64,000 bases of DNA from Pedobacter aquae (GTDB lineage Bacteria; Bacteroidota; Bacteroidia; Sphingobacteriales; Sphingobacteriaceae), in NCBI RefSeq assembly GCF_008195825.1, contig NZ_CP043329.1:1178001-1242000 (forward strand), read 5' to 3'. Each line of letters starts with the position of its first letter. The stretch's first letter is position 1. The translations under genes and the position numbers were made by a program. The notes under the pieces are model-generated. The model did no database searches. It was not told the DNA's origin and saw only the letters and a program-made list of their open reading frames with translations. Shown piece by piece: positions 4,526 through 61,103 of this stretch.

Positions 4526-6445
4526 TTAGCCTTCTAAAATCAATATTTCATCAGCTAGTTGCTCCCAATGTAATTGTAAAGCACCTAATTGTTCTTTTAA
4601 ATGATGATAACGCTCGTTCACCTCTTTTAATTTTTGAGGATTGCTATAAACTTCTTCTTTGGCAATTTCTGCTTCTGCTTCTTTCACCAATTTATCTTGT
4701 GCCGCTACGTCATCTTCTAGCTTTTGCAATTGCTGGTTTAGCTTTTTCAGTTGCTTAGCTTTGTCATCAGAAACTTGTGGCTTAGCTTCTTCTTTTTTAG
4801 CTTTTTCTACTTTAGCATGTTTGATACCACCGCCGGGTACAATTTCCTTTAACCTTTTAGCTTGCCACTCTTCATACTCGGCATAAGTACCAGGATATTC
4901 TTTAATTTGTTGATCCTCAATAAACCAAATCTTGTTGGCAACGCTATCTAAGAAATACCTATCGTGGGAAACAGCAATAAAAGTACCCTCGTATTGCTCT
5001 AAAGCTTGTATCAAGATATTTACCGATTGTATGTCTAAGTGGTTGGTTGGCTCATCCAGAATCAGGAAGTTAGAATCTGTAGTTAAGGACTTAGCTAAGG
5101 CAACCCTAGATTTTTCTCCTCCAGATAATACCCTGATTTTCTTAAACACATCATCACCAGTAAACAAGAAACAACCTAATATAGAGCGTAGCTCGGTATC
5201 AGAATGTTTAGGTGCAAAAGCCTGTAATTCCTCTAAAATAGCATTATCTAAGTGTAAAGATTCTAATTGGTGCTGTGCAAAAAAAGTGGTTGTAACATTA
5301 TGTCCGTTTTCACATTTCCCGCTGAAAGCTTCCGTACCTGCAATCATCCTCAATAGGGTAGATTTACCCTTACCATTGGCTCCAATTAAAGCTATTTTAT
5401 CTCCTTTTTCTATAAGCGCTTCTGCCTGGTCTAAAATATTAATATTTGGGTAGCTTTTAGAAGCATTTTCTATTCTGATGACATGCCTTCCTGAAGGTTT
5501 AGAGAATTTAAACCTGAAGTTTACAGTAGGGTTATCATCATCAACATCTTCAACACGCTCCATTTTATCTAAAGCTTTCATTCTGGATTGCGCCATTTTA
5601 GCTTTAGATGCTTTAGCTTTAAAACGTTCTATCAAACGCTCTTCTTGTTTAATTTTAGCTTGTTGGTTTTTAAATTCGCCTTTCTGAATTTCTGATCTTA
5701 AGGCTTTTTCTTCTAAATAGAAGGTATAATTACCAGAATAGATGGTTAATTTTCCTTTACGAGATTCTACTATACGATTTACAATTCTGTCTAGGAAATA
5801 CCTATCGTGAGATACAATCACAATAGCACCTTCAAAACCATTTAAATAAGTTTCTAACCACTTGATAGAGGGTAAATCCATGTGGTTGGTAGGCTCATCT
5901 AGCAGTAAAATATCTGGGTTTTGTAGTAATATTTTAGCTAACATGACACGCATACGCCAACCTCCAGAAAAGGTGTTTAGCGGCCTGTGTTGGTCTTCTG
6001 TACTAAAACCCAATCCGGCTAAAATCTCATTGGCTCTATACTCGATGTTATAACCATCTAAAGCCTCAAACTCTTGTTGTTTATCACTTAATTTATTGAT
6101 GAGCTCGTCAGAATAATCAGTCTCAATTTTCTTAAGTAAAACTTCAATTTCATCATGCAGCTGGTTTTGGCGCTCAAAAGCTTCCATAGCTACGTGTAAA
6201 ATGGTATGATGAGAATCGTAAGAAAGTAAATCTTGGTTGAGGTAACCTATTTTAATGTCTTTAGACATAGAAACGGTACCTTCAGAAGGCGAATACTCGC
6301 CAACTATAATTTTTAAAAGTGTAGATTTTCCGGTTCCATTAGCACCAATTAAACCTATTTTTTCTCCTGGTTTGATATGCCAGTTAGCTTCTTCATATAA
6401 AGCTCTTGAACCTATACGGAAAGTTAAATTATTTATTGCAATCAT
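4526..6445 (-). CDS. ABC-F family ATPase (Uup/EttA-like)
   Basis: The 639-residue protein has two ABC ATPase domains in tandem and no membrane segment, which defines the ABC-F class of ribosome-associated translation factors. Domain 1 has Walker A GANGTGKST (34-42), signature FSGGWRMR and Walker B ILLLDEPTNH. Domain 2 has GANGKGKST, LSGGEKSR and FLILDEPTNH. A charged P-site-tRNA-interaction-type linker (RLIERFKAKASKAKMAQSR) joins them. About 100 C-terminal residues form a Lys/Glu-rich coiled coil, as in Uup. ABC-F proteins rescue stalled ribosomes or protect them from drugs; which applies here is not clear from sequence. Confidence 0.9.
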   Translation of the reverse strand: MIAINNLTFRIGSRALYEEANWHIKPGEKIGLIGANGTGKSTLLKIIVGEYSPSEGTVSMSKDIKIGYLNQDLLSYDSHHTILHVAMEAFERQNQLHDEIEVLLKKIETDYSDELINKLSDKQQEFEALDGYNIEYRANEILAGLGFSTEDQHRPLNTFSGGWRMRVMLAKILLQNPDILLLDEPTNHMDLPSIKWLETYLNGFEGAIVIVSHDRYFLDRIVNRIVESRKGKLTIYSGNYTFYLEEKALRSEIQKGEFKNQQAKIKQEERLIERFKAKASKAKMAQSRMKALDKMERVEDVDDDNPTVNFRFKFSKPSGRHVIRIENASKSYPNINILDQAEALIEKGDKIALIGANGKGKSTLLRMIAGTEAFSGKCENGHNVTTTFFAQHQLESLHLDNAILEELQAFAPKHSDTELRSILGCFLFTGDDVFKKIRVLSGGEKSRVALAKSLTTDSNFLILDEPTNHLDIQSVNILIQALEQYEGTFIAVSHDRYFLDSVANKIWFIEDQQIKEYPGTYAEYEEWQAKRLKEIVPGGGIKHAKVEKAKKEEAKPQVSDDKAKQLKKLNQQLQKLEDDVAAQDKLVKEAEAEIAKEEVYSNPQKLKEVNERYHHLKEQLGALQLHWEQLADEILILEG

Positions 6446-47828: not shown

Positions 47829-50039
47829 ATGATACACTTACCAAATTTAATTACCGATTTAGGACTTATATTAGGCGCTGGAGCCATTATTACGCTTATA
47901 TTCAAATACTTAAAACAACCTTTAGTTTTAGGTTACCTTATTGCCGGATTTCTAGTAGGCCCACACTTTTCATTATTTCCCACCATTGTAGAAACAGAAA
48001 ACGTAGCTGTATGGGCAGAAATAGGTGTAATTATTCTCTTATTTAGCTTAGGGTTAGAATTTAGCTTCAAAAAGCTGATGAAAGTAGGGGGTTCTGCTTC
48101 TATAACTGCTATAACAGAAGTAGTGGTGATGCTTTTGTTAGGTTATTTTACAGGAAAAGCTTTTGGCTGGTCTACCATGGATAGTATTTTTCTTGGCGGT
48201 ATACTTTCAATATCGTCAACAACTATTATCATTAGAGCCTTTGAAGAACTAGGAGTAAAGGGACAAAAATTTGCAGGCTTAGTATTTGGAGTACTTGTGG
48301 TAGAAGATTTGGTTGCTGTAGTGCTTTTGGTTTTACTATCTACATTAGCAGTTAGTCAGCAATTTGCAGGCTCAGAAATGCTATTTTCTATATTAAAGCT
48401 TATCTTCTTTTTAGTGATTTGGTTTGTACTAGGCATATTCTTTTTACCAAGTTTTTTAAAAAAAATTAAACCATTAATAAGCGAAGAAATGTTGCTGATT
48501 ATTTCTTTGGCATTATGCTTTTTAATGGTGATTGCAGCAACAAAAGTTGGTTTCTCTCCGGCTTTAGGGCATTCATCATGGGCTCAATATTAGCAGAAAC
48601 CAGCCAGGGTAAAAAAATAGAACATTTAGTAATGCCTATTAAGGATTTATTTGGCGCAGTATTTTTTGTTTCCGTTGGGATGTTGATAGACCCGGCCATG
48701 TTAGCAGAACATGCTTTACCTGTAATAATTATTGTTTTAGTAACCATATTAGGAAAAATATTTAGCTCTTCATTAGGAGCTTTAGCATCAGGGCAACCTT
48801 TAAAAACATCAGTTCAAACCGGTTTTAGCTTGGCACAAATAGGGGAGTTTTCTTTCATTATTGCCACTTTAGGAGTAACACTAAACGTAACAAGCTCATT
48901 TTTATACCCAATTGCGGTAGCAGTATCCGCTATTAGTACTTTTACCACGCCATATCTTATCAAATTATCTTTTCCCTTTTATAATTGGTTAAATAAGGTT
49001 TTACCATCAAAATGGATAGAGAATTTAAATAAATATAGTTCTGCTACCCAAAGCGTTACTACAGTTTCTAATTGGCAATTATTTGTAAATCATACACGGC
49101 CAATACTTTAATCCACTTTAGCATAAGCTTAGCTATTATTTTACTGTCTTCTAATTATTTAAGTCCGTTTATACAAGGTAAAACAGAAAATGCGGTTTGG
49201 AGCAATATTGCATCATTGGTTATTACCATCATTGTTTTATCACCATTTTTATACGCCTTAAGCTTTAGAAATCTCTATAATGGGGTAGTGGTTGAGTTAA
49301 AAAATGAGCGCTTATACCGCAACTTAGTTTTAGTAATGCGCTTATTTAGGCTTTTATTATCTGCTGCATTAATCATTACTTTACTAAATAATTTACTTTC
49401 TGTAACGGTTGCACTTTATGCTGCATTGTTTATAATCGTGGTATTATTTATTTTCTGGAAGCAGGTTCAAAATGTGTATCTAAAATTAGAAATGCTATTC
49501 TTAAAAAATTATCATGATGAAGAGCAACAACCAAAAAAGAGCAACAAATATTAGCACCATGGGATGCCCACTTTACAGAAATAGAAGTTAAACCAGAGTC
49601 GCCAGCTGTAGGAAAGACCTTAATGGAGTTAAAATGGCGTGAAAGGGCCGGTATAAATGTAGCTATGATAAACAGAGGAAGTATAACCATCCATTCGCCA
49701 GAAAGTAATACTATTATTTATCCAGGTGATATTTTAAATATTATTGGTACTGATACGCAAATCAGGAAACTAAGCTCTATCATTAGGCCAGATAAAAAAA
49801 CTATCGAACAGCAAGATAATTATCAACCTAAATTACATAAGCTATTGGTGAGAAAGAATTCATTTCTAGAAGGTAAATCTTTAAAAGAATCAAAAATTAA
49901 AGATTTAACCGATGGAATTGTTGTAGGTATAGAAAGGAACGCCGAGCGTATTGTAAACCCAGAATCTAATTGGGTATTTCAAGAAAATGATATGGTTTGG
50001 ATTGTAGGAGATAGCGCTAAAATACAATCAACTTTATAA
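47829..50039 (+). pseudogene. CPA2 cation:proton antiporter (KefB/KefC-like), three apparent frameshifts
   Basis: Four overlapping frames (47829-48593, 48515-49111, 49072-49554, 49557-50039) together make one antiporter of about 737 residues. The membrane part has 11-13 helices with LGLILGAGAIITLIFKYLKQ, VIILLFSLGLEFS and GVLVVEDLVAVVLL. It ends with two RCK_C (TrkA-C) domains (TLMELKWRERAGINVAMINR; DLTDGIVVGIERNAERIV) and no TrkA-N domain. Each break is repaired by restoring one base in a run: G at 48567-48569, A at 49087-49089, A at 49533-49538. It would exchange K+ or Na+ for H+ across the inner membrane. Confidence 0.85.
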
Positions 50040-50047
50040 TAATAGGT

Positions 50048-50074
50048 ACTTCCCTTAAAGGGAGGTTATTTTAT
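50048..50074 (+). terminator. Terminator after the antiporter gene
   Basis: The stem acttccc / gggaggt (one G-U pair) with a 5-nt loop is followed by TATTTTATT. It lies 8 bp after the antiporter stop. Confidence 0.6.
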
Positions 50075-50145
50075 TACTTAACATAATGTTAATTATAAGA
50101 CATAAATATCTATCGGTTTTTTAGGAAAGTCTAATGGATACAAGT

Positions 50146-50361
50146 TTATCTAAACGTTCTTATCCAAAGTTCTTCAACTTTGGTACGAGCCCAATCTGTT
50201 TTTCTAAGAAATTTTAAACTAGATTTAACACTTGGATTTTCATTAAAACATTTAATCTTAATTTTTAATCCAAGTGCTGGCCATCCGTAAAAATCAACCA
50301 AATCATTTAGAATAGCTTCTAAAGTTCTGCCATGTAACGGATTGTTTGGTTGCTTCTCCAT
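50146..50361 (-). CDS. VF530/DUF2132 family small protein
   Basis: The 71-residue protein matches the VF530 family throughout: [40 protein letters not shown] and [20 protein letters not shown]. The Vibrio family member is annotated as DNA-binding, with a small alpha/beta fold; its role is unknown. Length is typical. It is 5 bp downstream of the DEAD-box helicase gene and is likely co-transcribed with it, an arrangement that may hint at a nucleic-acid-related job. Confidence 0.85.
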
Positions 50362-50366
50362 AGCTG

Positions 50367-51488
50367 TTAAATGCTAATCTTTTCGAAATAGATATTTAGC
50401 TCTTTTTCTAAAGCTGTAATTTTCTCTAATTCTGATGGCGCTACAAATGCCAAGGAAAGTCCTTTATTTCCGGCTCTGGCAGTTCTTCCGCTACGGTGCG
50501 TAAAATATTCTAGCTGCTCTGGTAATTGGTAATGAATAACGTAAGATAAATTACTAACGTCTATTCCTCTGGCAGAAATATCTGTAGCTATTAAAACTTG
50601 TAATCTTTCGCTTTTAAAAGCTCGCATTACTTTTTCGCGGTCTCTTTGTCCTAAATCTCCGTGTATAGACTCTACCTTTAAATTTTTGGCTAATAATTGT
50701 TTAGCAAGCGTTTGCGCACCAGCTTTTGTTTTACAAAATACAATGCCACGCTTATCATCGTTATTCTTAATAAAACTCTGTAAAAGATTTGGCTTGTCTT
50801 TAATATCACAAATCACATATTGATGTTTAATGGCTGTATTCATCACATCTTTATGGTCAACTTCAATTTTATAAGCATCATCAGCCATATAATCGCTTAT
50901 AATTTGCTTAATAGCTGATGGTATGGTTGCAGAAAAAAGCCAAATATTTCTATCTATTTGTGCGGTATGACTTAAGATTTTATCAATATCTGGCTTAAAG
51001 CCCATACTTAACATTTCATCGGCCTCATCCAAAATAATAGTTTTAACTTCTTTTAAATCAACTGCTTTACGCTCTAATAAATCTATTAATCGACCAGGTG
51101 TTGCTACTAAAATTTGCGTTGGGCGTTTTAATCTACCTATTTGGATATCAATTTTTTCGCCACCGTAAACGGCTTCAACAAAAATCTTTTTGCTTACGTA
51201 TTTGGTGAATTTAAAAAGCTGTTTGGCTATTTGCTGCCCTAATTCTCTGGTTGGACAAATGATAATGGCTTGAATGCTTTTTTGTTCTGGATTTACCAAT
51301 TGTAATAATGGTAAACCAAATGCTGCTGTTTTTCCGGTTCCGGTTTGTGCTTGGCCAATAAAATCTGTTTTATCTTTTAATAAAACAGGAATTGCTTGCG
51401 TTTGGATTACCGTTGGCGTGTTTATGTGTAATTCATCAAGGGCTTGTATAAGCTCTTGATGAATTCCTAAATCTTTAAAATTGCTCAA
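50367..51488 (-). CDS. DEAD-box RNA helicase (RhlE/CshA-like)
   Basis: The 373-residue protein is a minimal SF2 DEAD-box helicase: Q motif [17 protein letters not shown], motif [12 protein letters not shown], Ib [42 protein letters not shown] and [12 protein letters not shown]. It lacks the long basic C-terminal tail found in many RhlE and DeaD proteins, ending at the helicase core (NIYFEKISI). It probably remodels RNA in ribosome assembly or decay. Confidence 0.92.
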
Positions 51489-51535
51489 AATATGATATTT
51501 AAGCAGGCAAAGTTAAGCTTATTTATAGGTTTATG

Positions 51536-52261
51536 CTATTTTAAGACATATTCTATGCCTCCGGTTAAATGTTTTAGAAATAATTCGTCTTCAAAATCTT
51601 CTATCGTGTGGCCCAAACCAGTATAAAAAACTTTTCCGCCATCAAATTCATGATACCACGCCATCGGATGAAAATCGGGCATTTTACCACCAGTATAGCT
51701 CTTTTCATCAACCGTCATGATTACTTTTACATCTTTATTGAAATCTTTAAAATTATACCATTCGTCTGTATGCATCCAAGGGTTTGGTAAATCTTTTGTT
51801 GCAGGATGATTTGCATCTAAAATATCAAGTTTAGCTTCTTGAACTTTAGGATGCCCAGCAAAAAAGCCGCCAACAAGCTTACCATACCATTCCCAGTCGT
51901 AGTTACAATCTGTAGCTGCATGTACACCAACAAAGCCCCCTCCTCTATTGATATATTTTTTAAAAGCAGCTTTCTGAGCATCATCAAATAATGACTTTCC
52001 GGTAGGATTCAAAAACAATAATACTTTAAATTGCTTCAGATTTTTATCATTAAAATCTGCTGGATTTTCTGAATGTACAATGGTATAACCTTTTTCTTTT
52101 CCTATTTTTTTGATGGCTTCTAAACCAGGTTCAATACTTTTATGTCTAAATCCTTTGGTACAAGAAAAAACTAATATTTTAACCTCTTTCTTTTTGGCAA
52201 TAAAACTGCTTAGCGATAAGAAAAATGCAGTAAGGATTAGGCCTGTAATTAAATTTTTCAT
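51536..52261 (-). CDS. ThuA domain protein, exported
   Basis: The 241-residue protein has a signal peptide (about 1-22) followed by a ThuA (trehalose-utilisation, class I glutamine-amidotransferase-like) domain. Visible are VLVFSCTKGFRHKSIEPGLE-like start residues (KILVFSCTKGFRHKS), GGGFVGVHAATDCNYDWEWY, FFAGHPKVQEAKLDI and MAWYHEFDGGKVFYTGLGH. ThuA proteins in Bacteroidota often occur in sugar or glycoside metabolism; the exact reaction is not established. It is a single gene 47 bp upstream of the DEAD-box gene on the same strand. Confidence 0.87.
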   Translation of the reverse strand: MKNLITGLILTAFFLSLSSFIAKKKEVKILVFSCTKGFRHKSIEPGLEAIKKIGKEKGYTIVHSENPADFNDKNLKQFKVLLFLNPTGKSLFDDAQKAAFKKYINRGGGFVGVHAATDCNYDWEWYGKLVGGFFAGHPKVQEAKLDILDANHPATKDLPNPWMHTDEWYNFKDFNKDVKVIMTVDEKSYTGGKMPDFHPMAWYHEFDGGKVFYTGLGHTIEDFEDELFLKHLTGGIEYVLK

Positions 52262-52362
52262 TTATAAGGTTTTATGGTTTAATAACACAAAGGAATAAAA
52301 ACTTCCTTAATTTAATTGTATTAATCAATATAAATAAATCAAACAATTTATAAATTGCGGCT

Positions 52363-54489
52363 ATGCTACTTCAGAAACCGTTAGATGATTTCAGAAACTT
52401 CCTATACACCCAGTATTTTTCTGACGGTATTAAAATTACTATTGGGGTGCTTCTCCCCTCTTTAATTTTTGCTCAGTTTAACCTCTTAGAAATTGGCATT
52501 AACCTTTCTTTAGGGGCTGTTTGTTGTAGTATTGCAGATACGCCAGGGCCTTGGTTGCATAGAAGAAATGCCATGCTAATTACCAATTTTCTGGTGTTTT
52601 TGGTAGCCCTTATAACCTCTATTATTAATCATAATCAAATTTTAGTTGGTATAGAAATACTTACTTTTTGCTTCATTTTCTCTATGTTTTACATTTATGG
52701 GGCAAGAGCATCATCTGTAGGGACAGCAGCGCTATTAATTATGGTTTTAAACGTTGCTAACCATGAAACTACTTTAAATTATTATGAGCATGCAGGTTTA
52801 GTTTTAGCAGGCGGAATATGGTATTTTTTACTAAGTGCGTTATTTTCCTTTGTTAGGCCATTTAGGTACGCTAGGCAAACCTTAGGAGAATGTGTGCAAG
52901 AAGTAGCAGGTTATATGCGCATGAGGGCTGATTTTTATAACGATAAAATTCCCGTAGAAGATATTTTTAAAACTTTGGTTGATAAACAGGTTCTAGTACA
53001 TGAAATGCAAGATAATGTAAGAGAAATACTGTTTAAAACAAGAAAGCTTGTTAATGAATCAACTAGTGATGGTAGACTTCTCATCATGATTTTTGTTGAT
53101 ATGGTTGATTTATTTGAGCAAACCATGGCTACCCACCATGATTATGAAATTATAAGAAAGCGTTATAAAAATCATGATATTTTACCGGCTTATGCTTTAC
53201 TGATTCATAAACTAGCATCAGAAATTGAGTATATAGGTTTTTGCCTAATTCATCAGGTAAAACCAAGGAAACATGCTGTAAAAATTGAGGATTTAGATAA
53301 GCTTAAAAAACAGCTTGATGAATTAGAAAAAGCAGGAATATCTGTTCTGGTTTTAAAGAAAATATTGGTTAATCTTAGACATATATTTTCTAAAACCAAT
53401 ACCATTTTTGGTTATTTTGATAAAGAGAGTTTTATTAAACAAGCTAAATCTGGCTCAACAGATCATGATAAATTTGTTAGTCACCAAAGTTTTGATTTTA
53501 AGCTTCTTAGAAACAACCTCAACTTAAAATCTGGTAATTTCAGGTATGCTCTTAGGGTTTCTTTAGTTGTTTTTACAGGTTATCTAGTAGGTTTCTTATT
53601 ACCTGTTGGGCATCATAGTTATTGGATTATTTTAACCATACTGGTGATTTTAAAACCCGGCTTTAGCACTACCAAACAAAGAAATATTGAAAGAGTTATA
53701 GGAACCATTATAGGCGGTATTACAGGAGCTTTAATTATTTATTTTATTAAAGATGAAACTGCCAGGTTTATCCTGATGGTTTTATTCATGCTGATAACTT
53801 ATAGTTTACAAAGGGTAAACTACTTCATCAGTGTGGTATTTATGACACCTTTTATTCTCATCTTATTTAGCTTTATTAGCTCAACTATTAACGAGAGTTT
53901 GGCTGTAGAAAGAATTATAGATACCCTTATTGGTTCTGGTATTGCTTTTTTATCTAGTTATATAGTTTTACCTAGCTGGGAGTCTTACCAGTTTAAGAAT
54001 TATATGCTAGATATGCTTAAAGCCAATCAAAAGTATTTGGATGCTATGTTTAGAAGGTTTAATCCTCAAAATCAAATCAATATTACGGAGTATAAATTGG
54101 CTAGAAAGGAAGTTTATGTAAATACGGCCAATTTAGCGGCTGCTTTTCAAAGAATGCTTAATGAGCCTAAAAACAAGCAACACAATGCGGTTTTAGATGT
54201 CCATAAATTTGTGGTTTTAAATCATATTCTATCTTCTTATTTAGCAAATTTATCAACCAGCTTGCAAGATTCTCAGCTAGTATTTAATGCCGAGCAGCAG
54301 AAGCTTTTCAGGAAATCTCAGCATTATTTAAAACTTGCTATAGAATGGTTATCTGAAACTACACACGAGCAAGAATTTGTTCATGTTTTTGAGGGTACAA
54401 CAGAAACCAATGAGGATTTAGCTACAGAACAATTAGAACTTATTGTAAAAGTATCAGCAGATATATTGAAAATTACAGAAAAGCTTTAA
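52363..54489 (+). CDS. FUSC family (YccS/YhfK-like) membrane protein
   Basis: The 708-residue inner-membrane protein has two hydrophobic halves (about 25-165 and 395-535, five to six helices each) separated by a long cytoplasmic helical segment, plus a C-terminal helical region. This is the fusaric-acid-resistance/YccS layout. The second half has GYLVGFLLPVGHHSYWIILT, VILKPGFSTTKQRN and ERVIGTIIGGITGALI, the classic FUSC motif. Relatives are proposed efflux components; the substrate is unknown. It is monocistronic and convergent with the DUF4130 gene 7 bp away. Confidence 0.88.
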   Translation: MLLQKPLDDFRNFLYTQYFSDGIKITIGVLLPSLIFAQFNLLEIGINLSLGAVCCSIADTPGPWLHRRNAMLITNFLVFLVALITSIINHNQILVGIEILTFCFIFSMFYIYGARASSVGTAALLIMVLNVANHETTLNYYEHAGLVLAGGIWYFLLSALFSFVRPFRYARQTLGECVQEVAGYMRMRADFYNDKIPVEDIFKTLVDKQVLVHEMQDNVREILFKTRKLVNESTSDGRLLIMIFVDMVDLFEQTMATHHDYEIIRKRYKNHDILPAYALLIHKLASEIEYIGFCLIHQVKPRKHAVKIEDLDKLKKQLDELEKAGISVLVLKKILVNLRHIFSKTNTIFGYFDKESFIKQAKSGSTDHDKFVSHQSFDFKLLRNNLNLKSGNFRYALRVSLVVFTGYLVGFLLPVGHHSYWIILTILVILKPGFSTTKQRNIERVIGTIIGGITGALIIYFIKDETARFILMVLFMLITYSLQRVNYFISVVFMTPFILILFSFISSTINESLAVERIIDTLIGSGIAFLSSYIVLPSWESYQFKNYMLDMLKANQKYLDAMFRRFNPQNQINITEYKLARKEVYVNTANLAAAFQRMLNEPKNKQHNAVLDVHKFVVLNHILSSYLANLSTSLQDSQLVFNAEQQKLFRKSQHYLKLAIEWLSETTHEQEFVHVFEGTTETNEDLATEQLELIVKVSADILKITEKL

Positions 54490-54496
54490 AACTATT

Positions 54497-55264
54497 TTAA
54501 ACCACAAATTTTTCGGTAAGATATTTCCAGTACCTTTTAGGTACGTGTTGAATATGTAATCGGGAATTTTTTCTAGCTTGAATGGTTGTTTTCTTAAAAT
54601 AAGTTTGCCATAAATGTTGATATAGTTTTTCATCCTTAACCAACATCTCTAAACCTTCTTGTTTGTTTAAATGGTTAGCAAACTTCATTTCTACCAATTC
54701 AACCTTATGTAAATCATAATAAATACCATAAGTTCTTTTATGGTCAAAAATCATCCATTTTTGGTCTTGATAGCGGTCTTTAAAATGTTTTGCAATAACC
54801 GGTAAAACGTTAAAATCTGGTTCTATTTCGGCATAATAAATACCATCTAAGGTTAACCTAAAACGTACAAAAGCTTCCATCCTATGCTTCTCGCGATGCA
54901 CCATTTGCTCATATTGAGATAATTTTAAAACCGAAGGATGAGAAAAATCCTGTATGATTTTTCGTTGTGGATGATCTAGTGCATACTGCACAACCGCCCA
55001 TAAATGTGTTTCTATATCTTCATCTTCTGATAAAAAAGTGTATAACATCCGGTGTAAACCTAAATCTCCAATGAGAGATTTTAATTTCTGATATACCCTT
55101 TCTGCCTTAGGTGCTTGTGTAAATACTTTTCTTGTTTGGGCAAAAAGCTGCTCGGTTTGTAAAGCCTCTTTTACAATTTTTACTTGTTTTAATTTGAATT
55201 CATAAGCTTCAAAAACTGCGGTTAAGAAGCCTTCAAAAGTATGGTCATACAGTAAAATATTCAT
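54497..55264 (-). CDS. TIGR03915/DUF4130 family protein, partner of the radical SAM protein
   Basis: The 255-residue protein begins MNILLYDHTFEGFLTAVFEA, the hallmark of the DUF4130 family. It continues through ERVYQKLKSLIGDLGLHRML, SHPSVLKLSQYEQMVHREKH and the conserved MEAFVRFR segment. It ends KNSRLHIQHVPKRYWKYLTE. The family is annotated as a probable DNA metabolism protein that always occurs with the radical SAM protein TIGR03916. In many genomes it carries a C-terminal uracil-DNA-glycosylase-like domain; that domain is absent here. The gene overlaps the stop of the radical SAM gene by 1 bp, so the two are translationally coupled. Confidence 0.85.
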   Translation of the reverse strand: MNILLYDHTFEGFLTAVFEAYEFKLKQVKIVKEALQTEQLFAQTRKVFTQAPKAERVYQKLKSLIGDLGLHRMLYTFLSEDEDIETHLWAVVQYALDHPQRKIIQDFSHPSVLKLSQYEQMVHREKHRMEAFVRFRLTLDGIYYAEIEPDFNVLPVIAKHFKDRYQDQKWMIFDHKRTYGIYYDLHKVELVEMKFANHLNKQEGLEMLVKDEKLYQHLWQTYFKKTTIQARKNSRLHIQHVPKRYWKYLTEKFVV

Positions 55265-56523
55265 CAGAATAAAGCTAATTGAGCGTTATATTGGTCTTGA
55301 TACTTACTTTTAGTATTACCTAAAATAAATTGTTTTAAATTACTGCTATTCAAAAACTTAAGATTACCGAAATGTATTCCGTAGGTAATAAAGTATTTGG
55401 CTCTGTTAAGGGCTACACCTAACTTTTTTAAATGATTTTCATTTAACTGACTAAAGCGTCTGGCTTCAATAATTTTCCAAGCAGATTTTACGCCAATACC
55501 TGGTACTCTTAAAATCATCTCAAAATCTGCTTTTTGAATATCTATAGGAAAAATCTGCTGATTTCTTAGCGCCCAACTCAATTTAGGGTCAACATCTAAA
55601 TCTAAAAAAGGTAAGTTTGGGTCTAGTATTTCATCGGCTTTAAAGCCATAAAAACGCATTAACCAATCTGCCTGATAAAGTCTGTTTTCTCTTACCATAG
55701 GTACTTTACTTTGCAAAGAAGGTAAACGAGCATCATCGGCGATGGGAACATAGCCAGAATAATAAACCCTTTTCAGCTGGTAGTTTTTATAAAATGAATC
55801 GGCGGTTTGGATGATTTCTAAATCGTTCTCTTGTGTAGCACCTATAATAAGTTGCGTACTTTGCCCAGCAGGAGCAAATTTAGGTGTATTCCTGAAAAGC
55901 TTTTTTTCTTCTTTAAAAAGAATGATTTCGTTTTTAACATAATTCATGGGCTTTATCATGTCTTCCCTATTTTTGTCAGGCGCTAAAAGCTTTAATCCTT
56001 TTTCTGTAGGAAGTTCTAGATTAATGCTTAATCTATCAGCATAAAGTCCGGCTTCTTTCATCAACTCATCAGAAGCGCCAGGAATACTCTTTAGGTGGAT
56101 ATAACCATTGAAATTTTCTTCTAAACGGAGTTTTTTAGCTACTAAAACCAATCGTTCCATCGTAAAATCGGCATCTTTAAATATGCCTGAGCTCAGAAAT
56201 AAACCTTCTATATAGTTTCTTCTGTAAAAGTTTATGGTTAAATCAACAACTTCTTGAACGGTAAAAGCGGCTCTTTTAATATCGTTACTTTTACGAGTTA
56301 CGCAATAAGCACAATCGTAAATGCAATGGTTGGTTAGTAAAATTTTGAGCAAAGAAACGCATCGTCCATCTTCTGTGTAAGAATGGCAAATACCCATTCC
56401 GGTAGAATTTCCTAAACCTTTTTTTTGATTATTTCTTTTGGCACCACTGGATGAGCAGGAAACATCATATTTAGCCGCATCAGCCAGAATTTCTAATTTT
56501 TCTGTTATCCTATCAAAATTCAT
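55264..56523 (-). CDS. Putative DNA modification/repair radical SAM protein (TIGR03916)
   Basis: From ATG 56523 the protein has 419 residues; an in-frame TTG two codons upstream is less likely. The [4Fe-4S]/SAM motif is C67-IYD-C71-AY-C74, with further conserved-looking Cys23, Cys46 and Cys55. Parts typical of the family are LADAAKYDVSCSSSGAKRNN, FLSSGIFKDADFTMERL, HLKSIPGASDELMKEAGLYA, NLELPTEKGLKLLAPDK and KFAPAGQSTQLIIGATQEND. A helix-hairpin-helix (ILRVPGIGVKSAWKI, near 340) near the C-terminus suggests DNA binding. Its chemistry is unknown. The promoter lies inside a twin palindrome. Confidence 0.88.
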   Translation of the reverse strand: MNFDRITEKLEILADAAKYDVSCSSSGAKRNNQKKGLGNSTGMGICHSYTEDGRCVSLLKILLTNHCIYDCAYCVTRKSNDIKRAAFTVQEVVDLTINFYRRNYIEGLFLSSGIFKDADFTMERLVLVAKKLRLEENFNGYIHLKSIPGASDELMKEAGLYADRLSINLELPTEKGLKLLAPDKNREDMIKPMNYVKNEIILFKEEKKLFRNTPKFAPAGQSTQLIIGATQENDLEIIQTADSFYKNYQLKRVYYSGYVPIADDARLPSLQSKVPMVRENRLYQADWLMRFYGFKADEILDPNLPFLDLDVDPKLSWALRNQQIFPIDIQKADFEMILRVPGIGVKSAWKIIEARRFSQLNENHLKKLGVALNRAKYFITYGIHFGNLKFLNSSNLKQFILGNTKSKYQDQYNAQLALF

Positions 56524-56526
56524 AAT

Positions 56527-56534
56527 CAAATTTA
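56527..56534 (-). promoter_or_regulatory. -7 promoter box of the radical SAM gene
   Basis: The minus strand reads TAAATTTG, an exact TAnnTTTG match. It ends 3 nt before the ATG at 56523, so the transcript would be leaderless or nearly so. The box overlaps the inner arm of the 27-bp palindrome. Confidence 0.45.
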
Positions 56535-56574
56535 CTAAAATATTTAGTAAATTTTAAACTAAAAATTTTAGTTT
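56528..56574. promoter_or_regulatory. Twin palindromic operator before the radical SAM gene
   Basis: Two perfect palindromes lie side by side: 56528-56554 (12-bp arms, ATA spacer) and 56556-56574 (9-bp arms, A centre). Both contain ACTAAA-N3-TTTAGT, with centres 24 bp apart. They span the -7 box and the region where the -33 element should be, an arrangement expected for repression by a dimeric regulator binding twice. The regulator is not identified. Confidence 0.6.
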
Positions 56575-57446
56575 TATTTCTGAATTCTGATGGTATAATC
56601 TTTTATAGTTTCTTTAGGTTGGCCCAATTCATCCCATGTGAATTGAGAGACAAATTTTTCCTCATACTTGTTAAGCGCCTCTAAAATATGGTAGATATAA
56701 TTGATTTTATTTGAAAATTTACCCATAAACTTTAGCACACCAATTGGCGTTTTAAATACGTTTAAACGTTTCCTTTTATAGTTATCGATAAAAATTCTTA
56801 CTGCCTCTTCTGGATAATAAGCTTCTGGACCTTGAACGTTGTATTCTCTATTTTCATCAGTTAAAACCTCAAAAGATTTGGCAACTTGTTTACCATAATC
56901 GGCACCAGAAATCCAATACATTTTAGCTTCTGCTTTGCCTGCTAAATTCATCTGATTACCATTCATGAAGCTACCTTTATCAAAGTTCTCCATGAAACTG
57001 CTTGGGTAAAAAATGGTATAAGGAATTTTGCTGCTTTTAAGAATTTGAACGGCTTTTTGTTTAACATCAAAAACCCACCAATTGAAATTATTTTGCCCTT
57101 GATAATCTTTAACCAAAGAAGATAAATAAGTAATTCTTTGGATGTTATTTTCTTTTGCCGCTTCTATTAAATTTAGCAAACCAGTTGTTTCTGGCATGAA
57201 ATCTTTAGGTTTAGCGTGTTGCGGAATATGAAGATTTAAATAAACAGCCTCTTGCCCTTTTAAGGCTTGAGATAAGGTAGTTCTAGAAGCTAAATCGGCA
57301 AAAACGATGCTAGCTTGAGGAAATAATTCCTTAGCTTTTTTAATATTTCTGGCTAGAATGGTTACCTCGAAACCAGCTTTTATCAACTCATCTGTAACTG
57401 GTTTTCCTAGCATACCAGTAGCACCCAACACCGCTATTTTCTTCAT
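56574..57446 (-). CDS. NmrA-like NAD(P)-binding protein
   Basis: The 290-residue Rossmann-fold protein starts MKKIAVLGATGMLGKPVTDE, with the nucleotide-binding GATGMLG (8-14). It continues with VTILARNIKKAKELF, ITYLSSLVKDY and PYTIFYPSSFMENF. It belongs to the atypical short-chain dehydrogenase (NmrA/SDR-a5) group, which includes redox sensors and quinone reductases; there is no full SDR YxxxK motif. Its start overlaps the stop of the DsbA-like gene by 4 bp, so the two are co-translated. Confidence 0.85.
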   Translation of the reverse strand: MKKIAVLGATGMLGKPVTDELIKAGFEVTILARNIKKAKELFPQASIVFADLASRTTLSQALKGQEAVYLNLHIPQHAKPKDFMPETTGLLNLIEAAKENNIQRITYLSSLVKDYQGQNNFNWWVFDVKQKAVQILKSSKIPYTIFYPSSFMENFDKGSFMNGNQMNLAGKAEAKMYWISGADYGKQVAKSFEVLTDENREYNVQGPEAYYPEEAVRIFIDNYKRKRLNVFKTPIGVLKFMGKFSNKINYIYHILEALNKYEEKFVSQFTWDELGQPKETIKDYTIRIQK

Positions 57447-58093
57447 AGAGCCATCTCTTTTAATACATTCTGAACACGTAATTCCATAGTTTCTAGGTTA
57501 GCGTATCCTTTAGCTATCATATAAAATTTAAGCTCGCCAGTTCTGATAAATGCTGCCGGATAGCCCGTAACCTGCAACTGTCTTGCTAAGGCAAAATCAT
57601 AATAGGCAGCTTGTTTAAATTCTTCCTGATTAAGTTTGCTTATAAACTCATCAACAGGAATTTGATATTTTTCTGCTAAATAAACATAGCTATCATCTTT
57701 ACTTAAATCTAAACCATGAACATAAATGGCAGATTGTAAATCGTGAGCAAACAAAATAGCCTTTTCTGGAAAATAAGATTTAAAAACAGCTAGTGCTATC
57801 GCCGGTTTTTCTGAACTTAAGAATAAATCTCCTTTCTGCAATTCGGCCAAGAAAGCTTCGCCAAACTTAACACCTGTAGTGTTTTCAACATCTTTATAAG
57901 CTGTTTTAATGTAAGGAGCCACATCATTAATAGTACCTTCACGTTCGCCCATCATCATGCCACCAGATAAAACTTCGAAATCAAATTTATCGGCATAATT
58001 TTCAAAAAGACTTTTCATAACCGGACTAAAACCATAGCACCAGCCACAAATAGCATCGTAAACATAAATGATAGAAGGCTTCTTATTTTCCAT
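57443..58093 (-). CDS. DsbA family thiol-disulfide oxidoreductase (FrnE-like)
   Basis: Started at ATG 58093 the protein has 216 residues. The active site is C16-GW-C19 (YVYDAICGWCYGFSP) and the cis-Pro loop is QVTGYPAAFI, with a helical insertion between: a cytoplasmic DsbA-fold protein with no signal peptide. A longer frame from TTG 58123 would add ten residues but contains the -7 box TAGCTTTG (58099-58106), so the ATG is preferred. Its role is probably thiol redox control together with the NmrA-like partner. Confidence 0.85.
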   Translation of the reverse strand: MENKKPSIIYVYDAICGWCYGFSPVMKSLFENYADKFDFEVLSGGMMMGEREGTINDVAPYIKTAYKDVENTTGVKFGEAFLAELQKGDLFLSSEKPAIALAVFKSYFPEKAILFAHDLQSAIYVHGLDLSKDDSYVYLAEKYQIPVDEFISKLNQEEFKQAAYYDFALARQLQVTGYPAAFIRTGELKFYMIAKGYANLETMELRVQNVLKEMAL

Positions 58094-58098
58094 AAAAA

Positions 58099-58106
58099 CA
58101 AAGCTA
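58099..58106 (-). promoter_or_regulatory. -7 promoter box of the DsbA-like gene
   Basis: The minus strand reads TAGCTTTG, an exact TAnnTTTG match, ending 5 nt before ATG 58093. A TTTG about 14 nt further upstream is closer than the usual -33 spacing. Confidence 0.35.
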
Positions 58107-58156
58107 AAGGAAAGCTTTTTCAAAAGTGTTTATGGATAGTCAAATTAGACTTTGAA

Positions 58157-58639
58157 TTATAAAGTCATCGTCATTTTTAAAATTGGATAGCTTTGATTTT
58201 TGTAAGTGATGCTAAAATCATTATCTATAAAATGAAAACCATATTTAAGATAACATTGTGCCGCCACTTCGTTGTTAGAGAGCAAGTATAAGTCTATACG
58301 CTTAATTCCAAGCTCTAGTTTAGCTTCATTAATCAATAAAGTTATCAATTGTTTACCTAAACCTTTTCCTCTATTTTGGCTTTCGCCGATGAGTAAATGC
58401 CCTAAACGAGCAGACTCATTTTCTTGTGGAATAACTTCGCCATAAGCTATGGGCTGGTTTTCATCATCAATACCTAAATAAATAAGCCTTTCGGGATGCT
58501 TTTGTATATAGCTTAACATTTGTTCTCGCGTAAGCGGATATTGGAAAGCTATACCTGCAAATTTGAGTAAGGTATCTTCATCTTTCATCCAATTTGTTAA
58601 AATTGGGATATATTGTTCTTCAAAAGGAATGAGTTTCAT
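58157..58639 (-). CDS. GNAT family N-acetyltransferase
   Basis: The 160-residue GCN5-related acetyltransferase has the acetyl-CoA motif A region GHLLIGESQNRGKGLGKQLI and the following LELGIKRIDLYLLSNNEVAA / CYLKYGFHF motif B. The N-terminus (MKLIPFEEQYIPILTNWMKD) resembles the RimJ/RimL-type subgroup. The acceptor substrate is unknown. It is isolated from bioB by a terminator and probably has its own promoter in the region after it. Confidence 0.88.
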   Translation of the reverse strand: MKLIPFEEQYIPILTNWMKDEDTLLKFAGIAFQYPLTREQMLSYIQKHPERLIYLGIDDENQPIAYGEVIPQENESARLGHLLIGESQNRGKGLGKQLITLLINEAKLELGIKRIDLYLLSNNEVAAQCYLKYGFHFIDNDFSITYKNQSYPILKMTMTL

Positions 58640-58644
58640 CTTTA

Positions 58645-58675
58645 AACAAAAAAGGACAATCCCAAAAGATTGCCC
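58645..58675 (-). terminator. Terminator of bioB
   Basis: On the minus strand the stem gggcaatc / gattgtcc (one G-U pair) with a 6-nt loop is followed by TTTTTTGTTT. It lies 24 bp past the bioB stop. Confidence 0.88.
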
Positions 58676-58698
58676 TATTCAAATAATTTATGTGTTGA

Positions 58699-59694
58699 TT
58701 AAGCAGTTACTTCTTCTGCTTTTTGATTTGGTTTGCCATTTTTAAAAGCTTTTCTAGGCGTTAAACCTAAAAGCTCAAACATAGCCATATCATCTTTAAA
58801 ATCTGGATTTGGGGTGGTTAACAATTTATCACCAGCAAAAATAGAGTTTGCACCAGCCATAAAGCATAAAGCTTGTTCTATGGTGCTCATTTCTGTTCTT
58901 CCGGCAGATAATCTTACGCAAGTTTTTGGCATGGTAATACGGGCCGTTGCTATCATACGAACCATATCCCAAATAGGAACACGAGGTTGATTTTCTAAAG
59001 GTGTACCTTTTACCGGAACCAAAGCGTTCACCGGAACAGATTCTGGATGCTGAGGCATATTAGCCAAAACACGCAGCATAGAAACCCTATCGTTAACAGT
59101 TTCTCCTAAACCTATAATTCCACCACTACAAACCGTTAATTTTGCTTTACGAACGTTTTCTATGGTTTGTAAACGATCATCATAAGTACGGGTACTGATG
59201 ATTCTCTTATAATCTTCTTCTGAAGTATCTAAATTATGATTGTAGGCATATAAACCAGCATCAGCAAGTCTTTGTGCTTGGTCTGCATTTAGCATCCCTA
59301 AAGTACAGCAAACCTCCATATCCATTTCGTTTACAGCCTTTACCATATCAATAACCTTATCAAAATCGCGGTTATCACGTACTTCTCTCCAAGCTGCACC
59401 CATACATAAACGAGAAGCACCACCGTCTTTAGCTTTTTTAGCGGCATCTAATACTTCATCTACCTTCATCATGGCATGCACATCAACATCTGTATGGTAA
59501 CGGGCTGCTTGTGGGCAATAAGAACAATCTTCTGGGCAACCGCCAGTTTTAATAGATATTAAAGAACTGATTTGTACTTCTGAATAGTCTTTATTAGCTC
59601 TATGAATGGTAGCAGCTTCATACACTAAATCTAAAAATGGTCTATTATAAATTTCTAAAATCTCTTCTTTTGTCCAGTTATGTTTTGTTTGCAT
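58699..59694 (-). CDS. bioB: Biotin synthase
   Basis: The radical SAM enzyme inserts sulfur into dethiobiotin. I use ATG 59694 (331 residues, MQTKHNWTKEEILEIYNRPF), since the frame from 59715 adds seven residues not typical of the family. The [4Fe-4S] ligands are C53, C57 and C60 in GGCPEDCSYCPQ. Conserved CMGAAWREVRDN, YNHNLDTSEEDY and CSGGIIGLGE follow; the [2Fe-2S] ligands include the Cys in the CCTLG segment and Arg in RLSAGRTEMS. It is alone, with no other bio gene in the window. Confidence 0.95.
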   Translation of the reverse strand: MQTKHNWTKEEILEIYNRPFLDLVYEAATIHRANKDYSEVQISSLISIKTGGCPEDCSYCPQAARYHTDVDVHAMMKVDEVLDAAKKAKDGGASRLCMGAAWREVRDNRDFDKVIDMVKAVNEMDMEVCCTLGMLNADQAQRLADAGLYAYNHNLDTSEEDYKRIISTRTYDDRLQTIENVRKAKLTVCSGGIIGLGETVNDRVSMLRVLANMPQHPESVPVNALVPVKGTPLENQPRVPIWDMVRMIATARITMPKTCVRLSAGRTEMSTIEQALCFMAGANSIFAGDKLLTTPNPDFKDDMAMFELLGLTPRKAFKNGKPNQKAEEVTA

Positions 59695-59753
59695 GATTTG
59701 TAATTTTTTGAGCATTGACTATTGCTAAAAGAGCATAGCCAAATTTGCTACAA

Positions 59754-61103
59754 TTATAGTAATAATTTTGAGGCTAAGCCTAATAAAAGCAAGAATCCGA
59801 AAACATCGGTAAAGGTGGTAATGATGATGGATGAAGCAATTGCAGGGTCTATACCAACACGTTTTAAAACCAACGGTATGGATGAGCCTGCTAGGCCAGC
59901 TATCATTAAATTACCTGCCATAGCTATGAAAATTACCAAGCCTAATAATGGATTTGAATCATAAAAAAGTGCTGCCATAAAGACAATTAAGCCTATGATG
60001 GCTCCGTTTACTAAACCCACGGTAAACTCCTTTATTACAGTACGATAAGCCTGATTATCTGATAAATCACTTAAAGTAATTCTTCTTACGGTTACAGCTA
60101 AAGCTTGGGTTGCTGCATTACCACCCATACCGGCAATAATGGTCATGTAAGCAGGTAAGATTAAAATATGGGTGATGGTAGGTTCAAAATATCTAATCAC
60201 AGAGGAAGCTAAAAATGCCGTTACAAGATTAATAACCAACCAAGGTAACCTAGATTTTACAGCTGCTTGCCAATTACCACTTAATTCCTCATCTTCAGAA
60301 ACTCCGGATATTTTCAACATATCCTCGGTATTTTCTTCTTCTAAAACATCAATAACATCATCAAAAGTAACTCTTCCCAAAAGTTTCAAATGATCATCCA
60401 CTACAGGGATACTGGTAAGATTGTATTGAGAGATTAAATCGGCAACTTCCTCTTGGTCTACCTGGGCTTTAACATATATAAAGTCTTCATTAATTAAATC
60501 GGCAACTTTAACACTTGCTTTTGCTTTGATAAGGTTTTTTAAAGAAATGATACCTTTTAGTGTATCAGATTCATCAACAACATAAACGGTATAAAACTCT
60601 TCTATTTCTTCGCTTTGTTGAATAATTTCATCAATAGCCTGCTTTTTAGACATATTAGCGTATATCTTTATCAGCTGGGTATTCATCAAACCACCGGCAG
60701 AGTCTTCTTTATAGCTTAATAAGTTACGGATGTTTGATGCGTCTTCAGTATCTAAATCCTGAAGAATTTCTTGTTGATCTTCTTCATCAAGCTGGGCAAT
60801 GATATCTGTTGCATCATCATAATCAAGTTCTTCAACAATTTCTTGTCTCCGTTCTGGATCTAGTTCTAGTAAAAGTTCTTCTGGGTGAGCCTCAAAATCC
60901 ATTTCAGAAAGTACTTCTGAAGCGGTTTCTGCGGGTAATAAATTGATGATTCGCTTTTGCGATTCTAAAGGGATTTTACTGAAAAGGATAGCAATTTCTG
61001 ATGCGTGATATTCCCCTAAAAGCTTAACTAACTCCTCCTCATCGCCTTCTAAAGCTTGTTTTAGTTTTAAAACGTCGGTTTTATCAATTTCAAATGATTG
61101 CAT
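59754..61103 (-). CDS. mgtE: Magnesium transporter MgtE
   Basis: The 449-residue protein has a superhelical N domain (about 1-130: EYHASEIAILFSKIPLESQK, MDFEAHPEELLLELDPE), two CBS domains (about 135-255) and a C-terminal membrane domain of five helices (about 285-449). The pore region includes MGGNAATQALAVTVRRI and GLAGSSIPLVLKRVGIDPA, both strongly conserved. It forms an Mg2+-gated channel. The neighbour upstream is corA, so two unrelated Mg2+ uptake systems lie side by side. Confidence 0.94.
   Translation of the reverse strand: MQSFEIDKTDVLKLKQALEGDEEELVKLLGEYHASEIAILFSKIPLESQKRIINLLPAETASEVLSEMDFEAHPEELLLELDPERRQEIVEELDYDDATDIIAQLDEEDQQEILQDLDTEDASNIRNLLSYKEDSAGGLMNTQLIKIYANMSKKQAIDEIIQQSEEIEEFYTVYVVDESDTLKGIISLKNLIKAKASVKVADLINEDFIYVKAQVDQEEVADLISQYNLTSIPVVDDHLKLLGRVTFDDVIDVLEEENTEDMLKISGVSEDEELSGNWQAAVKSRLPWLVINLVTAFLASSVIRYFEPTITHILILPAYMTIIAGMGGNAATQALAVTVRRITLSDLSDNQAYRTVIKEFTVGLVNGAIIGLIVFMAALFYDSNPLLGLVIFIAMAGNLMIAGLAGSSIPLVLKRVGIDPAIASSIIITTFTDVFGFLLLLGLASKLLL

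Follow-up and report, generated by a model that had tools for sequence, protein, structure and literature searches.

The window analysed here, a stretch of 64,000 nucleotides of the Pedobacter aquae genome, carries a two-gene operon for a radical SAM protein and a DUF4130 protein, which on balance we regard as a probable SOS-induced, clamp-tethered pair for the repair of DNA lesions. Two exact operators of the SOS type precede the genes, QLALF forms the C-terminus of the radical SAM protein, and the genes, the operators and the C-terminal motif are conserved among relatives of the pair.

The ORF list of the window gives, on the minus strand, 54497–55264 (255 aa from ATG) and 55264–56529 (421 aa from TTG), and an in-frame ATG at 56523 is the start that yields a radical SAM protein of 419 aa. 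The list thereby confirms the two ORFs of 419 and 255 residues with a 1-bp overlap, lying within TGATG, that the first-pass annotation had described. The pair has the look of a two-gene unit because of this 1-base overlap and because a converging FUSC-like gene (52363–54489) ends just 7 bases away. Upstream, on the same strand, lies an NmrA-like gene, and the 50 bp between hold the two palindromes. A search for RNA elements at gathering scores found none within 50000–60500, and sigma-70-type promoters predicted in 54300–56750 numbered 5 versus 10.4 in shuffled sequences. The features of the locus are as follows.

54497..55264, minus strand, stop codon included: DUF4130/TIGR03915 protein of 255 aa without a glycosylase domain (269 and 170.1 bits)
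55264..56523, minus strand, stop codon included: radical SAM protein TIGR03916 of 419 aa (682 bits, full length)
55267..55281, minus strand: C-terminal QLALF, residues 415–419, candidate beta-clamp-binding motif (consensus in PMC12309361)
55450..55593, minus strand: helix-hairpin-helix-like region, residues 311–358 (PF14520 20.5 bits and PF12836 18.2 bits, each under its cut-off)
56302..56325, minus strand: CX3CX2C radical SAM cluster motif, C67/C71/C74 (127/127 rows)
56359..56457, minus strand: stretch with C23, C46, C55 and H47, candidate auxiliary Fe-S ligands (126/127 rows each)
56527..56534, minus strand: TAAATTTG, which fits TAnnTTTG, the -7 promoter element of Bacteroidota, and overlaps operator 1
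56533..56549, unstranded: LexA-type operator 1, palindrome TACTAA-N5-TTAGTA (motif CTAA-N5-TTAG in PMC8565304)
56558..56572, unstranded: LexA-type operator 2, palindrome ACTAA-N5-TTAGT (pattern search)

Membership of the two proteins in TIGR03916 and TIGR03915 is plain. In a profile search of the window ORFs the radical SAM protein matches TIGR03916 with 682 bits over profile positions 1–414 of 415 (curated cut-off 343.5 bits) and the Radical_SAM domain with 40.1 bits; its partner matches TIGR03915 with 269 bits over positions 1–243 of 243 (curated cut-off 112.25 bits) and DUF4130 (PF13566) with 170.1 bits. The earlier family assignment thus holds for both proteins at full length. In an alignment of 127 proteins, which includes the window protein and, twice, one viral contig (L120, L122), the cysteines C67, C71 and C74 of the radical SAM motif are present in all rows; C23, C46 and C55, N-terminal to this motif and previously noted as extra, conserved-looking cysteines, are found in 126 rows each, and H47 is likewise conserved. 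Extra N-terminal cysteines are also known from lipoyl synthase and the methylthiotransferases, where they belong to the auxiliary clusters of sulfur-inserting enzymes. A candidate auxiliary Fe-S cluster on C23/C46/C55 is plausible because the window protein has three such cysteines. The helix-hairpin-helix-like region weakly matches a ComEA-related protein and scores below the cut-off of 27 bits for PF14520, and the radical SAM family profile, searched against solved structures at E up to 0.01, found nothing except a helix-hairpin-helix protein. In a Gemmatirosa relative (L036:5809–7260; identity 33%) the radical SAM core is present, C23, C46 and C55 are missing, and QLSLW is kept near the C-terminal end; the 13 kb fetched around it showed no DUF4130.

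The near-constant co-occurrence of the two families, stated in the first-pass annotation, was borne out in a sample of 148 genomes from the phylum, one of which is that of the window: the radical SAM gene occurs in 43 of them (41 over the cut-off, plus fragments in G052 and G060), DUF4130 in 43, both in 41 and neither in 103. Exceptions to the pairing are two genomes in which the radical SAM match lies at a contig edge (G024, G121) and two of the 148 that have DUF4130 without the radical SAM gene (G033, G134). Caulobacter vibrioides, a control in these searches, also matched both families. Of 138 radical SAM loci, one contig being in twice, 131 have DUF4130 on the DNA that was fetched; it invariably shares the strand of the radical SAM gene, and in 114 loci it is no more than 300 bp away. 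The radical SAM gene comes first in the window as in its relatives. In the phylum of a Psychrobacter genome the radical SAM gene is present in 31 of 200 genomes; the 148-genome and 200-genome samples each contain their own positive centre genome. In G134 (locus L013), which has no TIGR03916 match, an ORF of about 60 codons ending in QLSLF lies directly upstream of the DUF4130 ORF at 5534, and this tiny clamp-motif protein stands where the radical SAM gene would be.

A phage origin of the pair was considered but not adopted. Ten records labelled as phage matched, namely an Acinetobacter record, its near-twin and eight unannotated gut contigs, one of which was fetched; three loci come from two viral contigs. 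In the Acinetobacter record inspected (CAKLQH020000003.1, filed under the label Acinetobacter phage) the pair has glyS, glyQ and aroE for neighbours, and the record resembles a bacterial chromosome. NZ_CP104448.1, a 4.09 Mb Acinetobacter baumannii record, is filed in the plasmid collection.

The pattern ACTAA-N5-TTAGT occurs at 6 sites in the 3.85 Mb genome, versus 27 for the same pattern read backwards, and the six sites lie at four promoters: two sites lie at the radical SAM/DUF4130 pair, two at an operon for a DinB-like and a DnaE-like polymerase, one at the gene of an HTH/S24-peptidase repressor and one at a radical SAM gene of the PA0069 family. In the polymerase operon the DinB-like ORF (L193:5173–6422) has its start downstream of where the N-terminus usually lies, and the first part seems to be frame-shifted in a T run, through either a sequencing error or decay to a pseudogene. 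PMC8565304 gives CTAA-N5-TTAG as the Bacteroidetes SOS operator, predicts SOS control of a ‘COG1573-COG4277’ operon, of error-prone polymerases and of a phage-like repressor, and reports that no regulator was found in Bacteroidales. Judging from the description and the pairing, COG4277 is very probably TIGR03916. The first-pass annotation had put the pair forward as the window's best candidate for an undescribed system, a view that finds no support, as the pair and, as a prediction, its SOS control are already in print in PMC8565304. Its further suggestion of work on DNA gains weight from the LexA-type operators shared with translesion polymerases and from the clamp-binding-like C-terminus.

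Operators lying no more than 150 bp from the start of the radical SAM gene were also counted in Pseudomonadota and Bacteroidota. A LexA box is present in 32 of the 41 Pseudomonadota loci (26 of the alpha type, GTTC-N7-GTTC, and 6 of the gamma type, CTGT-N8-ACAG), while five control patterns were found in 1, 1, 0, 0 and 0 of the 41 and other genes of the loci gave 4/245 and 0/245. Seven of the nine loci without a LexA box come from Moraxellaceae-like records; Moraxellaceae are not known to have LexA. Three Psychrobacter loci without the box (L082, L084, L094) have in common a palindrome of the kind CGACAACCGTTGTCG or TGCGACAGCAGTTGTCGCA, which lies upstream of the radical SAM gene at a distance of about 125 bp from its start and is possibly the operator of another regulator. 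Of the 94 Bacteroidota loci, 23 have CTAA-N5-TTAG upstream (four controls: 1, 1, 0 and 0; other genes: 6/668). The Flavobacteria operator GGA-N5-TCC adds 11 further loci of the 94 versus 29/668 other genes, with controls at 3, 1 and 3 of 94, a signal that is weak when taken alone; neither exact operator is found in 60 of the 94 loci, Bacteroidales among these. Half of the CTAA-N5-TTAG sites upstream of radical SAM genes (12 of 24) run straight into TAnnTTTG, the -7 promoter element of Bacteroidota.

The second line of evidence is the C-terminus. Bacterial beta-clamp-binding motifs follow the consensus QL[S/D]LF or QxxLF (PMC12309361) and are often C-terminal (PMC4549789), and QLALF at the accessible end of the radical SAM protein matches this consensus. 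It has the appearance of a tag for docking on the sliding clamp, and this suggests for the enzyme a possible place of work on damaged DNA at replication forks. In the 127 rows the top residue reaches a fraction of 1.00 at Q415, 0.90 at L416, 0.90 at L418 and 0.94 at F419, beyond a linker of variable length in which positions 382–414 reach 0.17–0.69. The last 30 residues hold the strict form Q[LMI]x[LM]F in 94 rows, QxxL[FWLI] in 13, a longer variant in 19 and a QMALAL end in 1. In a like-for-like comparison, 93 of 126 radical SAM proteins have the strict form in their last 30 residues versus 1 of 1000 other ORFs (distinct, non-overlapping, at least 150 aa long and taken from the loci of the radical SAM proteins), and 125 of 126 have any clamp-like form versus 9 of 1000, the looser forms having been defined after inspection of the tails. 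Some form of the motif is kept by 61 of 62 relatives below 80% identity, 42 of them in the strict form, and a motif-like form by all 16 below 65%, only 7 of them strict; the relatives as a whole come largely from Bacteroidota and are not independent of one another. Among 122 tails that fit the loose pattern, position 2 is L in 111 or M in 7, position 3 is mostly S, position 4 is L in 117, and position 5 is F in 108, L in 6 and W in 5. Three Acinetobacter-type proteins end in QLSLGF, and L039 has 24 residues beyond QLSFF. The DnaE, DnaE-like and DinB proteins of the window's genome contain one QxxLF each (QGSLF, QDTLF and QINLF), in internal positions that make them weaker evidence. A search of mainly open-access literature, judged by titles and the openings of abstracts, turned up no paper that connects radical SAM enzymes with a clamp motif.

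The same genome has a radical SAM gene of the PA0069 family (NF033668) at L195:3410–4477, about 2860909–2861976 of the genome, whose product ends in QISLF and whose promoter carries a LexA-type palindrome, as for the pair. No DUF4130 ORF was noticed on the 9.5 kb fetched with this gene, and the only TIGR03915 match of the genome is that of the window. Within the phylum, Q[LMI]x[LM][FWL] is present in the last 32 residues of 23 of 30 PA0069 ORFs (30 of 40 matches were fetched). The clamp-binding-like terminus and its recurrence in PA0069 are new within the literature searched.

As to the partner, residues of DUF4130 that are invariant over 58 sequences include R134, F135, P149, R164, W170 and D174. 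Searched by sequence against solved structures, it met S100 chains only (best E 0.034). When all 58 members were compared with Pfam, the other families shown matched one to three members each, the best being M-HEAT_ATR, which matched one member at 1.1e-05. The PHROGs search found no kinship and the PADLOC defence models gave no match. By sequence, then, solved structures, Pfam, PHROGs and PADLOC yielded no family of known function related to DUF4130 and no fold for it.

The preferred explanation can be laid out as a sequence of steps. DNA damage would relieve an S24-type (non-canonical LexA) repressor on the two promoter operators. With its C-terminal QLALF the radical SAM protein would dock on the beta sliding clamp, and with its helix-hairpin-helix-like region on the DNA, and the 5'-deoxyadenosyl radical would act on a damaged nucleotide, letting replication or error-prone polymerases pass or restore the lesion. 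DUF4130, the near-obligate partner, would serve to recognise the lesion or to finish its repair, a role that we assign as a guess. Binding of the repressor, binding of the clamp and DNA as the substrate of the pair are what we infer; for the chemistry our guess is that direct reversal is more likely than permanent modification.

PMC8565304 reads the operon differently, as an auxiliary of uracil-DNA glycosylase in base excision repair that helps to remove uracil or misincorporated bases, which we consider unlikely for the window pair. The reading draws strength from Pseudomonadota, where the partner is often a fusion of DUF4130 with a glycosylase domain: a leave-one-out profile found 24 such ORFs (L172 is counted as unfused because a profile built without it showed no fusion), and none in the Bacteroidota loci examined. 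In a simple pattern search 23 of the 24 fused domains have GEQPG and 17 the R[RK][IL]H loop, UdgX features that agree with the abstract of PMC10359453; two records annotated as UdgX score 312.8 and 287.2 bits with TIGR03914, and the domain fused to DUF4130 looks like UdgX. Seven further Pseudomonadota loci, however, have DUF4130 without a glycosylase domain, in addition to the Moraxellaceae-like and Brachymonas loci, which are also unfused. The glycosylase part that the first-pass annotation described as missing is indeed absent: TIGR03914 (UdgX-type) matches neither the DUF4130 gene nor any other part of the genome, which has one E. coli-type UNG elsewhere. Over the cut-off, TIGR03914 is found in 0 of the 148 phylum genomes, and weaker matches occur in 108, many of them without the pair. 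Two of these weaker matches (E 7.6e-4 and 8.9e-4) are in the window's class, in genomes without the pair, and the remaining ones are in other classes, where they include each of the 25 genomes from family f15 that bear the pair. A related glycosylase below the cut-off, which would suit the uracil reading, is thus encoded elsewhere in 25 of the 41 genomes with both genes, all of this one family from another class; the other 16 have none, and no TIGR03914 match is listed for the 15 other pair-bearing genomes of the window's class. The published reading misfits the window because TIGR03914 is absent from its genome and exceeds the cut-off in none of the 148, and this absence corrects the reading for the window's lineage. 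The persistence of the operon there without the glycosylase is new within the literature searched.

Three other explanations bear on the substrate and on the tail. Radical SAM enzymes form C-C and C-S bonds, and the three extra cysteines resemble those of sulfur-inserting enzymes, as might befit a programmed DNA modification enzyme that sets an epigenetic or protective mark; we hold this to be improbable, since the damage-type operators shared with error-prone polymerases and the absence of both genes from 103 of the 148 genomes fit repair better, and no defence model was matched. Proteins and tRNA are frequent substrates of radical SAM enzymes, and a clamp-binding tag could be aimed at the clamp itself. 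That the enzyme acts on protein or RNA, for example by modifying the clamp or a polymerase, is nevertheless very unlikely, the helix-hairpin-helix-like region, the SOS-type operators and the glycosylase fusion of the partner elsewhere all pointing to DNA. There is, finally, a small chance that QLxLF is a structural tail, as the strict form is not kept by 33 of 126 relatives and clamp binding itself is a prediction; against this stand the strict form in just 1 of 1000 background ORFs, the conservation of the motif past a poorly conserved linker of variable length, and the substitutions in the 122 tails, which follow the pattern of clamp motifs. Repair of lesions by an SOS-induced, clamp-tethered pair remains the reading that we favour.

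More tentatively, this reading might extend to at least two radical SAM repair families, that of the pair and PA0069, which would be switched on by the SOS response, ride the clamp and bring radical lesion chemistry to the fork; DUF4130 would then be the lesion-handling part of the first, optionally with a cross-linking UdgX. We found no description of such a repair mode in the literature searched. The operon is widespread and putatively one of repair, and no substrate, reaction or other biochemistry of the pair was found in that mainly open-access literature. The clamp-like tag and the SOS-type operators turn a ‘function unknown’ into directly testable questions of clamp binding, damage induction and the lesion involved.

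Compared with known systems, the window pair consists of full-length, adjacent members of TIGR03916 (rSAM_link_UDG) and TIGR03915, with nothing defining that is different. The UdgX-fused form (TIGR03914 plus TIGR03915), found here mainly in Alphaproteobacteria, has the same radical SAM partner, a similar C-terminal motif and a LexA box of the local type; unlike it, the window protein lacks a glycosylase domain and its genome a TIGR03914 match. The pair also resembles members of the Bacteroidetes SOS regulon, as set out in PMC8565304, in its two exact CTAA-N5-TTAG sites, an operator common to the pair, the S24 repressor and the translesion-type polymerases, but the operon is taken there for uracil-glycosylase repair, whereas the window's lineage lacks that glycosylase. 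Spore photoproduct lyase (SplB) is likewise an SOS-linked radical SAM protein with a proposed role in DNA repair (PMC8565304 and PMC3765255); the window protein differs from SplB in its partner protein, its three additional cysteines and its helix-hairpin-helix-like region, and searches of NCBIfam and of solved structures, both at E up to 0.01, gave no match to this lyase beyond the radical SAM core. PA0069 (NF033668) belongs to a different radical SAM family, yet it shares with the window pair the type of operator and, in QISLF, the C-terminal motif.
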